This document shows, in pieces, positions 5,230 to 24,545 of a stretch of 24,845 nucleotides of DNA; position 1 is the first letter of the stretch, and every line of letters starts with the position of its first letter. A program made the translations under genes and the position numbers. Source of the DNA: a virus; IMG/VR virus record IMGVR_UViG_3300042507_000986, positions 1-24,845 of that record, one strand, 5' to 3'. The notes below the pieces were generated by a model. The model did not search any database. It was given only the letters and a program-made list of their open reading frames with translations, and was not told the DNA's origin.

Positions 5230-5814
5230 TTACTTATTTAGTTTGTTTAAAACTGAATCCATTATTGTGCGTGGTCTTTTAGACGCAAATTTTATAGACT
5301 CAACTTTGTTTTCGTTTTCAGGGTTAAAAGAAATTGGTTTAACTTCTTCGTCTTTTGATAGTTCAACTTCTTTAACCTCGTTCAATTTGCTTAGTTCAGC
5401 TTTAAGCGTTTCGTTCTCTTTTTTCAACGCTTCAATTTCCGAAAAGAAACTTTCCTTAATTACGCTTTCAACTACTTTTTTAGGAGCGCTTTTAGCTGTT
5501 TCCATTTCTTGTTCTTTTTTCGCTTCCTCTTCGATAGGTTCTTCAACTTCTACTTCTTCCTCTTCTTCTTCTTTTTCTTTAATTTCGGAAATAATTCCTT
5601 CTTCAACAACGATCAACATACGCCCGTCTTCCATTTCGTATTCTCCTACTGGCACGGGTATTTTTTGTTCGTCTTCCGTTACTACGAAAATTTCGTTACC
5701 AGCTTCAAACATATCAGCTTCAAGAACTGTTACGCCATCCATTAGTTTCATTTGTTCAAGTTTTACTTCCATTCCAAGTAAAGTTTTGATTTGATTGATT
5801 AGGCTATTTTTCAT
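5230..5814 (-). CDS. Scaffold-like acidic coiled-coil head protein
   Basis: The 194-residue product has three parts: an N-terminal domain (about 1-76) with MDGVTVLEADMFEAGNEIFVV and VPVGEYEMEDGRML; an extremely acidic stretch (about 77-104, runs of Glu); and a coiled coil (about 115-150) followed by a basic C-terminus with FASKRPRTIMDSV. An acidic helical middle with a basic C-terminal end just upstream of the capsid gene is typical of scaffolding proteins, which guide procapsid assembly and are removed by the protease. The VxLxxxxxxxGxxxFV N-terminal module recurs in Bacteroidota phage head proteins as I know them. No catalytic motif is visible. Confidence 0.6.
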   Translation of the reverse strand: MKNSLINQIKTLLGMEVKLEQMKLMDGVTVLEADMFEAGNEIFVVTEDEQKIPVPVGEYEMEDGRMLIVVEEGIISEIKEKEEEEEEVEVEEPIEEEAKKEQEMETAKSAPKKVVESVIKESFFSEIEALKKENETLKAELSKLNEVKEVELSKDEEVKPISFNPENENKVESIKFASKRPRTIMDSVLNKLNK

Positions 5815-16175: not shown

Positions 16176-17381
16176 TTATTTTAATTCAACTCCGTTCTTC
16201 TTAATAATTAAACTTGGGTCAAGTTTTTTCATACGGTCAACTATCACTTGGCAATATTTCGGGTCTAATTCCATTCCGTAGCATTTGCGTTTAAGTTGGT
16301 GTGCAGCTACAATTGTAGTACCACTTCCAGTAAAAGGCTCAAATAAAAGCATTTTTTCTTTAGTAAATAATTTTATACCATTAGAAGGTAATTCAACTGG
16401 AAAACAAGCCTTATGATGTTCAATTTGAGTTTTAGCATTTGATATTTCCCAAACATTTTCATTATAAGCGTTTTTTTCTTGATATGAAAAATCTAATTCG
16501 TCTTTTTGAAATACAAAAATAAATTCAAAAGCACGAGATAAACCTTTTGATAAAGGAATAGCATTTTTTTTCCATATTATTGTTTCAGTTAATAATAAAC
16601 CAGAGTCAATAAATCTATTTATATTTTTAATAAACGATTGCCTTGAATTATTATTATACATTATATTCCAGCAAACAATACCTTTTGATTTTAAAATTGT
16701 ATAAAATGAATTTTTTATTTCGTCTAAAAAAATCAAATATTCTTCTTCTGTTTTATTATCTAAATCATTATTTAAATACAATTTTCCTTGTGGTGTTTGA
16801 GTGTTTCCGTTGTAAGGTGGTGAAGTAAATATTAAATCAGCCTTTTGCCCGTTCATTAACTTTGCCACTTGGTCGCTATCCGTACTATCTCCACAAAGTA
16901 AACGATGTTCTCCTATTTCAAATAAATCTCCTATTACTATGTCCGTGTTTATCTCGTTAGGTATTTCGTAATTATCTTCTTCAGCTTCGAGTTCTTCTTG
17001 AACGCTTAAATCAACTGGCAAATCTAACCCCCAATCATCTAACTTTTCAGCATCCCATTCATTTGCTAAACTATCCCAGTCCCATTCTCCAAAACCTACA
17101 TTGTCTTTTATTAAAAATTCGTTTTTTTGTTCCTCCGTCCACTCGTCTGCTACTATAATCGGTATTTCTTTTAATCCTATCTCTTTACAGGCTTTTAAAC
17201 GCATATTACCACCTAAGACAACGTATTTATTATCCACGTCAGTAAAAACGATTAGAGGGCGTTTATTTAGCATATCAGGAAATTCTTGAATAGACTTAAC
17301 TAACTTTTGAAATTTGCCGTCTTTTATTATTCTTGGGTTCTTCGGGTTGGGTTTAACCTCGCTTATCTTAACTATTTGCAT
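16176..17381 (-). CDS. ParB-like domain fused to DNA methyltransferase
   Basis: The 401-residue protein has an N-terminal ParB/Srx-like module (about 1-95: PNPKNPRIIKDG, VVLGGNMRLKACKEIG) and a C-terminal methyltransferase. The catalytic TSPPY is at 186-190 and the SAM-binding FEPFTGSGTT at 347-356, so the catalytic motif precedes the SAM motif, the order of beta-class N6-adenine or N4-cytosine enzymes. The target-recognition region in between (about 195-340, DNA 16360-16800) is much more AT-rich than its flanks (15-30% GC against about 40%), suggesting replacement by recombination. Such orphan phage methyltransferases commonly shield phage DNA from host restriction. The gene overlaps its upstream neighbour by 14 nt. 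Confidence 0.85.
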   Translation of the reverse strand: MQIVKISEVKPNPKNPRIIKDGKFQKLVKSIQEFPDMLNKRPLIVFTDVDNKYVVLGGNMRLKACKEIGLKEIPIIVADEWTEEQKNEFLIKDNVGFGEWDWDSLANEWDAEKLDDWGLDLPVDLSVQEELEAEEDNYEIPNEINTDIVIGDLFEIGEHRLLCGDSTDSDQVAKLMNGQKADLIFTSPPYNGNTQTPQGKLYLNNDLDNKTEEEYLIFLDEIKNSFYTILKSKGIVCWNIMYNNNSRQSFIKNINRFIDSGLLLTETIIWKKNAIPLSKGLSRAFEFIFVFQKDELDFSYQEKNAYNENVWEISNAKTQIEHHKACFPVELPSNGIKLFTKEKMLLFEPFTGSGTTIVAAHQLKRKCYGMELDPKYCQVIVDRMKKLDPSLIIKKNGVELK

Positions 17382-22529: not shown

Positions 22530-23543
22530 TTAAAATGGCATAGTCATTTCGCCATTCTTGTTTTCAATTGGTTTTAATTCTTCAAATGCGCCTTGCTTCA
22601 TTCTTTCACTAAACGAAAGTAATTCTTTTCCGTTTACAATATCAGGCTTTAATACAGATTGTTTGACGGGGAAGCCGTTTGATGTCTTAGGTCGAAACTC
22701 TTTTAACGGGTCAACTTCATTTATTTTAAACCCTAATCCAAAATTGTAGTCGCAGTAAATTGGATCGTTTAACCCCGTATGTTTACCACCTGTGTCAGTG
22801 TCTTTTACTTTTTCAACGTTTACCCAAGTTACAAACTTCATTGTTTCATGTTTTACTAAACGATGAATAACAAACATATCGTCGCATCTATTTATAAAAG
22901 CCTTACCCCCTTCAATATGGTCTTTTAACGGTGCTTTTAAATGTCCTTGATATAAACCATCAGTATATAGATTGCCACTTCGACCGCTTTCACTATTAGG
23001 GTGCGTGTTTATGTATACAGTTATACCGTATTTATTGCAATAGTCACGGCATTGATTCAAAAATAAGTAATTACTTTGAAAGTCCATTTGTCTATCTAAA
23101 CCCGTAAACGGGTCAATCAATGCTACATTACATTCAGATTCTTTAAAAATGTTCAAAAGGTCTTTAGGTTTGTATAATTCAGCATTATTTACAAAGTAAA
23201 ATTGTTGTTCTAAAATAGTCATACCGCTTTTTATTTGCTCGTATGTCAAATCTTTGAACTTTATACCGTAGTACATTTGAATTAAGTCACGTAATATATT
23301 ACCCTTCTTGTTTTCACCGCTCCAAATACAAAACTTTAGATTGTGCCTTAAGGCTAAATTTAGAAAGTACCAATTTATCCAGTATGTTTTTCCTACGTTG
23401 TCGTGTCCTAAAATTATATTTAATTGATTAGGTTTAAATCGTAGGTATTCATCAAGGTAACACCCTATTCCTAATCCGTCTTTTATTTTACCGTCTTTGT
23501 AATCTAACAAATATTGTAAGCTATCTCCAGAAGTTGTTATCAT
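22530..23543 (-). CDS. DnaB/RecA-fold replicative helicase-like ATPase
   Basis: The 337-residue protein has Walker A GHDNVGKT (46-53), a WSGE segment with Glu77 that fits the catalytic glutamate position, Walker B in NVALIDPFTG (139-148, Asp144), and YINTHPN (177-183) as the sensor-like histidine motif. This is the pattern of DnaB-type or related phage RecA-fold replicative helicases, without the N-terminal primase-binding domain of full DnaB. It follows the DnaD-like initiator after 2 nt, so the initiator probably loads it at the origin. The C-terminal ~60 residues (after 270) look flexible. Confidence 0.8.
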   Translation of the reverse strand: MITTSGDSLQYLLDYKDGKIKDGLGIGCYLDEYLRFKPNQLNIILGHDNVGKTYWINWYFLNLALRHNLKFCIWSGENKKGNILRDLIQMYYGIKFKDLTYEQIKSGMTILEQQFYFVNNAELYKPKDLLNIFKESECNVALIDPFTGLDRQMDFQSNYLFLNQCRDYCNKYGITVYINTHPNSESGRSGNLYTDGLYQGHLKAPLKDHIEGGKAFINRCDDMFVIHRLVKHETMKFVTWVNVEKVKDTDTGGKHTGLNDPIYCDYNFGLGFKINEVDPLKEFRPKTSNGFPVKQSVLKPDIVNGKELLSFSERMKQGAFEELKPIENKNGEMTMPF

Positions 23544-23545
23544 TA

Positions 23546-24202
23546 TTAAGGTTTTAAAAATCCAAGTTTAATTGCTTTTAGTTCTTCAGGTGAAACACCT
23601 TCTTGTTGTTTAGGCTGGTTTCTATTTAACCAATTTTTAGCAGTCAAATATAAAGAACTAAATTTTTTATTTTGAGAATAATTTTCAATTTGGTCTAAAA
23701 TGTCATCAACTTGTTGTTTTGTATAATCAACACACAACTTATTAAACTCATCAAATGAAATATATAAATGTGAAAATTTTCTATATATATTTTCTTCTTT
23801 TAATTCTTTTAATTCTTGTTTGTTTCCGTCTGGTTTATTATTTGGTTTTCTATTTGGTTTACTATCTGCTTTACTGTCGCATTGATATTCTTTGTAATTA
23901 ACTATTGATATTAAGGTAGTTACGTTTGTTTTTTGCCTTATTATTTGATTGTCATTTTCAAGCATCTGCATAAACCTTTCAACCTTACCTCTTGACCATT
24001 GCCAACGTTTACCTAAAGTATCTAAATCATAACCTATTTGACCTACTTTTACTTCAACACGAATCCCACGTTTAAAGAAATAATTATCTGCATGATTAGC
24101 AATTAATAACATATCTACCCAAGCCATTGACCTATTGAATGGTTCTGAAAAGTATAGCGGGTTTTCCGTTATTTTTCTATGAAGTTTTATCCAACCGCTC
24201 AT
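23546..24202 (-). CDS. DnaD-like replication initiator
   Basis: The 218-residue protein has an N-terminal winged-helix domain (about 1-105: MSGWIKLHRKITENPLYF, FKRGIRVEVKVGQIGYDLDTLGKRWQWSRGKVERFMQML), a linker with five tetrapeptide units of the form [DN]-x-K-[PA] (about 109-128), then KQELKELKEEN and a C-terminal helical domain with YTKQQVDDILDQIENY and SLYLTAKNWLNRN, resembling the DnaD-tail that contacts DNA and helicase. Phage initiators of this build bind origin repeats and load the helicase encoded next door. The gene is more AT-rich than its neighbours (about 18-27% GC in places), and the linker DNA is a tandem repeat (see 23831-23878). Confidence 0.8.
   Translation of the reverse strand: MSGWIKLHRKITENPLYFSEPFNRSMAWVDMLLIANHADNYFFKRGIRVEVKVGQIGYDLDTLGKRWQWSRGKVERFMQMLENDNQIIRQKTNVTTLISIVNYKEYQCDSKADSKPNRKPNNKPDGNKQELKELKEENIYRKFSHLYISFDEFNKLCVDYTKQQVDDILDQIENYSQNKKFSSLYLTAKNWLNRNQPKQQEGVSPEELKAIKLGFLKP
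23831..23878. repeat. Four tandem 12-bp repeats inside the initiator gene, candidate iterons
   Basis: Four contiguous 12-bp units (consensus TGGTTTactATt on the plus strand) run from 23831 to 23878; units 1-3 begin TGGTTT and unit 4 TGCTTT. A degenerate fifth copy lies at 23819-23830. They encode the tetrapeptide repeat DSKA-DSKP-NRKP-NNKP of the linker. A very AT-rich stretch with TATATATA tracts lies just beside them at 23755-23815. The arrangement resembles the lambda O gene, where iterons sit in the linker between initiator domains. Confidence 0.55.
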
Positions 24203-24453: not shown

Positions 24454-24480
24454 AAAAAAAGCCCCTGAAATCCTTGGGCT
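24454..24480 (-). terminator. Intrinsic terminator of the leader RNA
   Basis: Arms AGCCC (24476-24480) and GGGCT (24460-24464) form a 5-bp stem with an 11-nt loop, followed by seven U (24454-24460). It lies 19 nt before the start of the 24199-24435 gene. Confidence 0.6.
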
Positions 24481-24545
24481 CTCACATCCAATTCATTCAA
24501 AGGCTTAATAACTTCTTTAAGTTCGTATAGTGTGAGAGCGAACCG
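24454..24545 (-). ncRNA. Structured leader or small RNA with alternative stems
   Basis: A predicted ~90-nt transcript starts near 24545 just after the promoter and ends in the terminator. It contains a 9-bp perfect inverted repeat GCTCTCACA/TGTGAGAGC (24531-24539 with 24478-24486), an inner AACTT-AAAG-AAGTT hairpin (24510-24523), and competing pairings: GTTCG (24539-24543) with CGAAC (24521-24525), and AAGCC (24502-24506) with GGCTT (24459-24463). The 9-bp stem shares bases 24478-24480 with the terminator stem, so the two cannot form together, as in attenuators or riboswitch-like leaders. It could also be a free sRNA. I do not recognise a known family. Confidence 0.5.

Follow-up and report, generated by a model that had tools for sequence, protein, structure and literature searches.

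We analyzed a window of 24,845 bases, which is the whole of an incomplete viral record. Its main genes all lie on one strand, and the GC skew, which is monotonic along the fragment, gives no indication of where replication starts. At one end, a gene for a 218-amino-acid initiator is located at 23546 to 24202 on the minus strand, as identified from a match to phrog_2514, a predicted structural model, and homologues. The adjacent gene, at 22530 to 23543 on the same strand, encodes a RecA-fold/DnaB-like ATPase. This product matched phrog_18375 (E = 4e-21) and phrog_239 (E = 1e-19), both described as "DNA primase/helicase," and also phrog_19, described as "DnaB-like replicative helicase" (E = 4e-7). 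It is probably the replicative helicase partner of the initiator C-terminal domain. The genes around these two are those for single-strand annealing, exonuclease, SSB, and NinG, and by its predicted gene content, the locus is an ordinary phage module for replication and recombination.

The initial annotation had described the initiator as DnaD-like, which holds for the N-terminal part of the protein. Residues 1 to 138 match phrog_2514, "DnaD-like helicase loader" (E = 3e-24), and the profile and the predicted model together place a winged-helix domain at residues 1 to 107. In the model, this domain is followed by a disordered linker at about residues 108 to 137 (pLDDT < 50 at 110 to 136), which is rich in K, N, D, S, and P, and by a small helical C-terminal domain at about residues 139 to 195. 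The DnaD domain itself (PF07261/TIGR01446) was not found in the window protein by Pfam and NCBIfam searches, although the same searches detected it in the proteins of TP901-1, phi575, SA780, and poppyseed. Because the window protein has no Pfam or NCBIfam DnaD domain, the label fits its N-terminal family only. A lambda O-like family was absent from its family-profile matches. When solved structures were searched by sequence, weak matches to winged-helix regulators were obtained. A fold search of the model against the PDB returned winged-helix proteins only, with nothing below an E value of 0.001. In this search, the N-terminal domain weakly resembled MarR/CRP-like folds, and the RepA N-terminal domains (4pql and 4pt7) appeared at an E value of about 0.03 among many winged-helix proteins; the protein had no RepA_N match in Pfam. 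Among predicted viral structures, the model matched "replisome organizer" entries.

Other features were observed in the window. A perfect 9-nt inverted repeat (GCTCTCACA and TGTGAGAGC, with 44 nt between the arms) lies at 24478 to 24539, close to an A-rich run in the gap that precedes the initiator operon. It could be a regulatory RNA element or a terminator; an Rfam search returned no match, this inverted repeat included. Beside the terminase genes, a gene at 16176 to 17381 on the minus strand encodes a ParB N-terminal domain fused to an N6/N4 DNA methylase (PF02195 and PF01555). A DUF6712 protein is encoded at 120 to 854 on the minus strand, and its Pfam match is confined to residues 141 to 230; its residues from about 65 to 135 contain Gly/Thr-rich repeats of the TGTGYT type and resemble an inserted surface domain.

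Repeats, core element, and AT-rich DNA inside the initiator gene

A self-match scan and TRF detected an iteron array of five 12-bp units with the consensus CARAYRGTAMAM at 23821 to 23880 on the minus strand. In coding-strand order and in the register of the homologues, the units are gcGACAGTAAAG (23869 to 23880), CAGATAGTAAAC (23857 to 23868), CAAATAGAAAAC (23845 to 23856), CAAATAATAAAC (23833 to 23844), and CAGACGGAAACA (23821 to 23832), that is, four units and a degenerate fifth. The repeats occupy codons 108 to 127 and thus fall inside the predicted disordered linker between the two folded parts. TRF reported a 12-bp array of 3.8 copies at 23831 to 23875 as the top-scoring array of the window. 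Among lags 7 to 40, lag 12 gave the best self-match in the entire contig, with a score of 24, and the runner-up, an acidic coding run at 5539, scored 19. The array score was compared with a synonymous null in which the peptide was fixed and the codons were drawn from the contig's own usage. A score of 24 was reached in 16 of 5,000 recodings (null mean, 12.5) and, when the maximum was taken over all lags from 8 to 40, in 1 of 150. The DNA copies resemble one another more closely than encoding the peptide would demand. These tests confirmed the earlier claim of in-phase 12-bp tandem repeats in the linker-coding part, at the place where it had been made. Taken alone, the window array is only moderately significant, and this evidence is suggestive and short of conclusive. 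Beyond scattered single matches, no further copies of the iteron array were found in the window.

A conserved core element, ACAAACAAGAAT, recognized by a pattern found across homologues, is located at 23812 to 23823 on the minus strand and has a single exact copy in the window. It is read as (G)NKQE in the window and as TNKN in most homologues. Three 9-bp AT-rich direct repeats (AAGAATTAA, AAGAATTAA, and AAGAAGAAA) are located at 23791 to 23817 on the minus strand, and those of the homologues are of the AAGAATGAT type. The core and the 9-bp repeats, which lie between the array and the AT-rich stretch, were absent from the initial annotation.

The extremely AT-rich stretch that had been claimed beside the repeats was also found. 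A region of low duplex stability with TA runs, a candidate DNA-unwinding region, extends from 23754 to 23813. The 60 bp starting at 23754 have the third lowest duplex stability in the contig (99.8th percentile), and the segment from 23757 to 23817 is 87% AT, which is the 99.4th percentile of equal windows. The two contig windows of still lower duplex stability sit at or beside gene junctions.

Linker DNA of the homologues

Viral contigs supplied 17 close relatives and up to 80 of greater distance, 73 came from contigs of bacterial and archaeal genomes, and named phages were also included; 145 distinct relatives sharing the N-terminal domain were retained. The linker of nearly every relative contained a short-period DNA repeat, and the best linker period was 12 in 70 of 146 cases and 11 in another 70. 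The 12-bp period is kept in the nearest homologues (L001 to L016, L029, L030, and L037), and 11-bp linker arrays are found in Staphylococcus phi575, Bacillus poppyseed, Enterococcus EH-TP1, and Vibrio F89. Since 11 is not a multiple of 3, the frames rotate, and 11-bp arrays give no peptide repeat of that period. Significance was tested against synonymous recoding (P ≤ 0.01) in 91 non-redundant relatives with N-domain identity below 70%. Lag 11, which is out of codon phase, was significant in 48 of the 91 linkers and in none of the N-domain or C-terminal controls. For lag 11 or 12, 59 of the 91 linkers were significant, compared with one N-domain and no C-terminal matched control, and lags 10, 13, and 14 were at background. 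Some homologues' linkers lacked a significant repeat in the synonymous-recoding test, and the copy number of the repeats differs among homologues. Homologues that keep the tetrapeptide with scrambled codons, the refuting observation named in the initial annotation, would have spoken for the peptide; the opposite was seen, the DNA repeat being kept while the peptide varies. Contrary to the earlier suggestion that DNA and protein functions may share one sequence, the tetrapeptide repeat probably arises as a side effect of the DNA repeat and does not serve a second function.

In most homologues, the element ACAAACAA(G/T)AAT followed by AT-rich 9-bp repeats was found 3' of the array; the pattern search did not find it in 39 of 146 linkers. 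The core is read as TNKN or TNNN in 68 cases, as NKQE, HKQE, or PEQE in 22 (window included), and as QTI in 4. On the N-domain tree, these readings require at least 9 frame changes, compared with 20 to 26 for shuffled labels. The count of 9 is approximate, since the tree rests on few columns and is weakly supported. The minority frame is nevertheless found in branches that are not related to one another, namely, the window clade, L088/L089, L095, L097 to L106, L107, and L116 to L123. Of 42 TN[KN]N peptides, 40 use AAC for the first Asn and 41 use AAT for the last, whereas at other positions of these genes, the AAC:AAT ratio is 530:610 (Fisher P = 4e-20). This codon bias indicates that the constraint acts on DNA. 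Part of the conservation seen at its core positions follows from the pattern used to find the element; this circularity does not affect the codon test, the comparison of reading frames, or the DNA-only scan described below. The 50 bp after the core are at a median of the 98.4th AT percentile of their own locus (n = 63). In L097, L101, L104, and L106, where the core is read HKQES or HKQER, the 9-bp repeats after it differ, and these four possibly represent a divergent origin type.

In the DNA-only scan, the exact 19-mer ACGGACACAAACAAGAATG was searched in IMG/VR viral contigs. It was found in 15 stretches, and all 15 are inside genes of the initiator's family, at 36 to 63 bp past the N-domain end; the stretch in L189 uses the other frame. 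The substitution pattern was then compared between domains. Among seven close relatives, the linker had a pS of 0.170 and a pN of 0.163, and the N-domain had a pS of 0.448 and a pN of 0.062. Near the window, synonymous change was thereby 2.6-fold lower and amino acid change 2.6-fold higher in the linker than in the adjacent N-domain. Between the window and L008, the 22 linker codons contain 1 synonymous and 14 amino acid differences, compared with means of 7.7 and 5.6, respectively, in N-domain stretches of 22 codons. Low synonymous change together with high amino acid change indicates selection on the linker DNA and not on the peptide. Judged from these sequences, the linker is kept as DNA, not merely as peptide. 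The comparison establishes the anatomy of the site, its conservation in homologues, and DNA-level selection on it.

The protein character changes between phages directly after the core element. The window, L001, L029, and L030 have one C-terminal domain in common, a second type is found in L003 to L007 and L017, and a third is found in L008 to L016. The neighboring ATPase of the NIILGHDNVGKTYW type occurs with the first and third C-terminal groups, the TTYIGAAPASGKTELW type occurs with the second group and L037, and other types again occur in L043, L052, L055, and L107. The C-terminal half and the ATPase gene are thus exchanged between close relatives, with the break immediately after the origin element; this comparison covered 22530 to 23543 and the 3' half of 23546 to 24202 in the window, together with L003, L005, L008, L037, L043, L052, L055, and L107. 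The grouping of C-terminal domains and ATPases implies that the N-domain and the iterons travel together and that the C-terminal domain and its partner are exchangeable. This would fit a two-sided protein, one half of which recognizes the origin and the other half the helicase.

Known embedded origins and the function of the array

The design of an origin embedded in its initiator gene is already known. As positive controls, our repeat scan recovered the iterons of lambda O, the annotated origin of 80alpha, and a repeat in the middle of TP901-1 rep. The likeness to lambda O that had been proposed for the window was borne out, since the same scan recovers the annotated iterons inside O; in both, iterons lie in the initiator gene between the DNA-binding and the helicase-interacting parts. 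The reading frame also shifts along the annotated lambda iterons, whose steps are 20, 24, and 23 bp. The lambda iterons differ in being 18 bp long at 20- to 24-bp spacing, compared with the close-packed 11- or 12-bp units of the window family. The window protein has no O-like match, but homologue L025 joins the N-domain to an O-like C-terminal half (phrog_391).

In SPP1, gp38 binds the direct repeats of oriL within gene 38, beside an AT-rich unwinding region; this binding has been demonstrated, and theta replication from oriL has been reconstituted in vitro (PMC6316719). Compared by description, the window likewise has direct repeats and an AT-rich region in the gene of the origin-binding protein. 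SPP1 (gp38/gp39/gp40) differs in that its loader, gp39, is separate and in that it has another origin, oriR, in addition to oriL; the window fragment showed no second array. According to another report, the repeats bound by ORF13 of TP901-1 and by ORF16 of Tuc2009 are located within the genes of these proteins and function as the origin (PMC8965321). On that account, TP901-1 rep and Tuc2009 rep2009 resemble the window in that their repeats lie within the replisome organizer gene, and in TP901-1 rep, our repeat scan places the repeat in the linker region. The TP901-1 and Tuc2009 proteins have a 15-bp period and a C-terminal DnaD domain, in contrast to the 12-bp period and undetected DnaD domain of the window, and their N-domains show no meaningful BLASTP similarity to the window protein. 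In 80alpha, the origin was proposed to be inside ORF20, and ORF20 and ORF21 were reported to be necessary and sufficient for autonomous replication (PMC5499656); the record NC_009526 annotates the origin inside the initiator gene gp20. As in the window, repeats are followed by AT-rich DNA, which is Asn/Thr coding in 80alpha. However, gp20 has another N-terminal sequence, a 15/30-bp period, and a DnaC-like loader partner, whereas the window has a RecA-fold helicase gene. The phrog_2514/phrog_186 proteins of phi575, poppyseed, EH-TP1, and F89 have the window's N-terminal domain and the same repeat location. They differ from the window protein in their 11-bp arrays and, in several cases, in a true DnaD C-terminal domain.

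In the window, direct repeats lie inside the initiator's own gene, between its DNA-binding and C-terminal domains, and the adjacent AT-rich DNA is computed to melt easily. We are highly confident in reading the linker DNA as an iteron origin that is embedded in the initiator gene and bordered by an unwinding region, of the lambda O, SPP1, and TP901-1 type. Iteron binding, melting, helicase loading, and origin firing are the steps that we infer from the sequence. The N-terminal winged-helix domain would bind the close-packed 12-bp iterons in its own gene. The filled array, with sites of about one helical turn each, would distort or strain the neighboring DNA, and the core element and the 9-bp AT-rich repeats would melt. 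The C-terminal domain, on its flexible linker, would then recruit the product of the neighboring gene, the RecA-fold helicase.

Three other explanations were weighed against this origin. The repeats might encode only a low-complexity flexible linker, with the DNA repeat a passive result of the tetrapeptide and AT-rich codon usage. The predicted disorder of the linker, its K/N/D/S/P-rich composition, which is frequent in flexible linkers, and the codon phase of the 12-bp period in the window agree with this explanation. However, the array exceeds the synonymous-codon null, half of the homologues have 11-bp arrays out of codon phase, and the core element is the same in three frames, so the frame data contradict it. 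The linker pN is also about equal to pS through low pS and high pN, and we regard a linker-only explanation as very unlikely. Recent, nearly neutral expansion by replication slippage readily produces tandem arrays of identical period, and the copy numbers do vary among homologues. Nevertheless, synonymous change is suppressed and not just unaccumulated, as the N-domains of the window and L008 differ at 59% of synonymous sites. Moreover, only periods 11 and 12 recur, and 10, 13, and 14 do not, and the core element is outside the tandem array; slippage is a very improbable source of this pattern.

The comparative data prove a DNA-level function without saying which, and the array could be an operator autoregulating the initiator gene or the replication operon, not a replication start. 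Winged-helix proteins are often repressors, and the weak MarR/CRP-like resemblance of the N-domain model would fit such a role. Against this, the site is in the middle of the gene and not at a promoter, and the anatomy around it, with iterons, a conserved core, and AT-rich repeats, is that of an origin. In addition, the counterparts in SPP1, TP901-1, and Tuc2009 have been demonstrated to act as origins (PMC6316719 and PMC8965321). An operator in place of an origin is therefore improbable, although the two functions can coexist at the array.

To our knowledge, the origins of most phages seen only in metagenomes are unknown. We found no description in the open-access literature of the 11- or 12-bp arrays of this N-domain family, of its core element, or of the frame change. 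If the embedded origin is real, sequence could reveal the origin, the site bound by the initiator, and the breakpoint at which modules are exchanged across a whole phage class that spans several bacterial phyla. It would also be a clean case in which a DNA function dictates a protein linker: a change from 12- to 11-bp spacing moves the reading frame, and the peptide is whatever that frame spells. The conserved core beside the iterons would be a candidate helicase-loading or unwinding site.

A large group of phage initiators from viral contigs and from prophages of Bacteroidota, Bacillota, and Proteobacteria may have a core in common. It would consist of ACAAACAA(G/T)AAT and, after it, A-rich 9-bp repeats in triplet phase. 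On the bottom strand, T recurs at every third position of these repeats, which would allow the core to act as a single-strand loading site. We tentatively propose, as a possibility with considerable doubt, a single origin core that has kept the same DNA through the frame changes counted above and is possibly a strand-specific loading site of this kind. The recognition element of Bacillus subtilis DnaD consists of pairs of 5'-TnnT-3' (PMC10201434). A resemblance of the core to this element or to DnaA-trios could be considered, as a lead only. In the common frame, triplet-phased A on the coding strand equals the synonymous null (0.89 versus 0.89); it is therefore explained by N/K/D/E codons and was rejected as a signal in the DNA. 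Triplet-phased A exceeds the null only in the minority frame (0.69 versus 0.48, n = 8).
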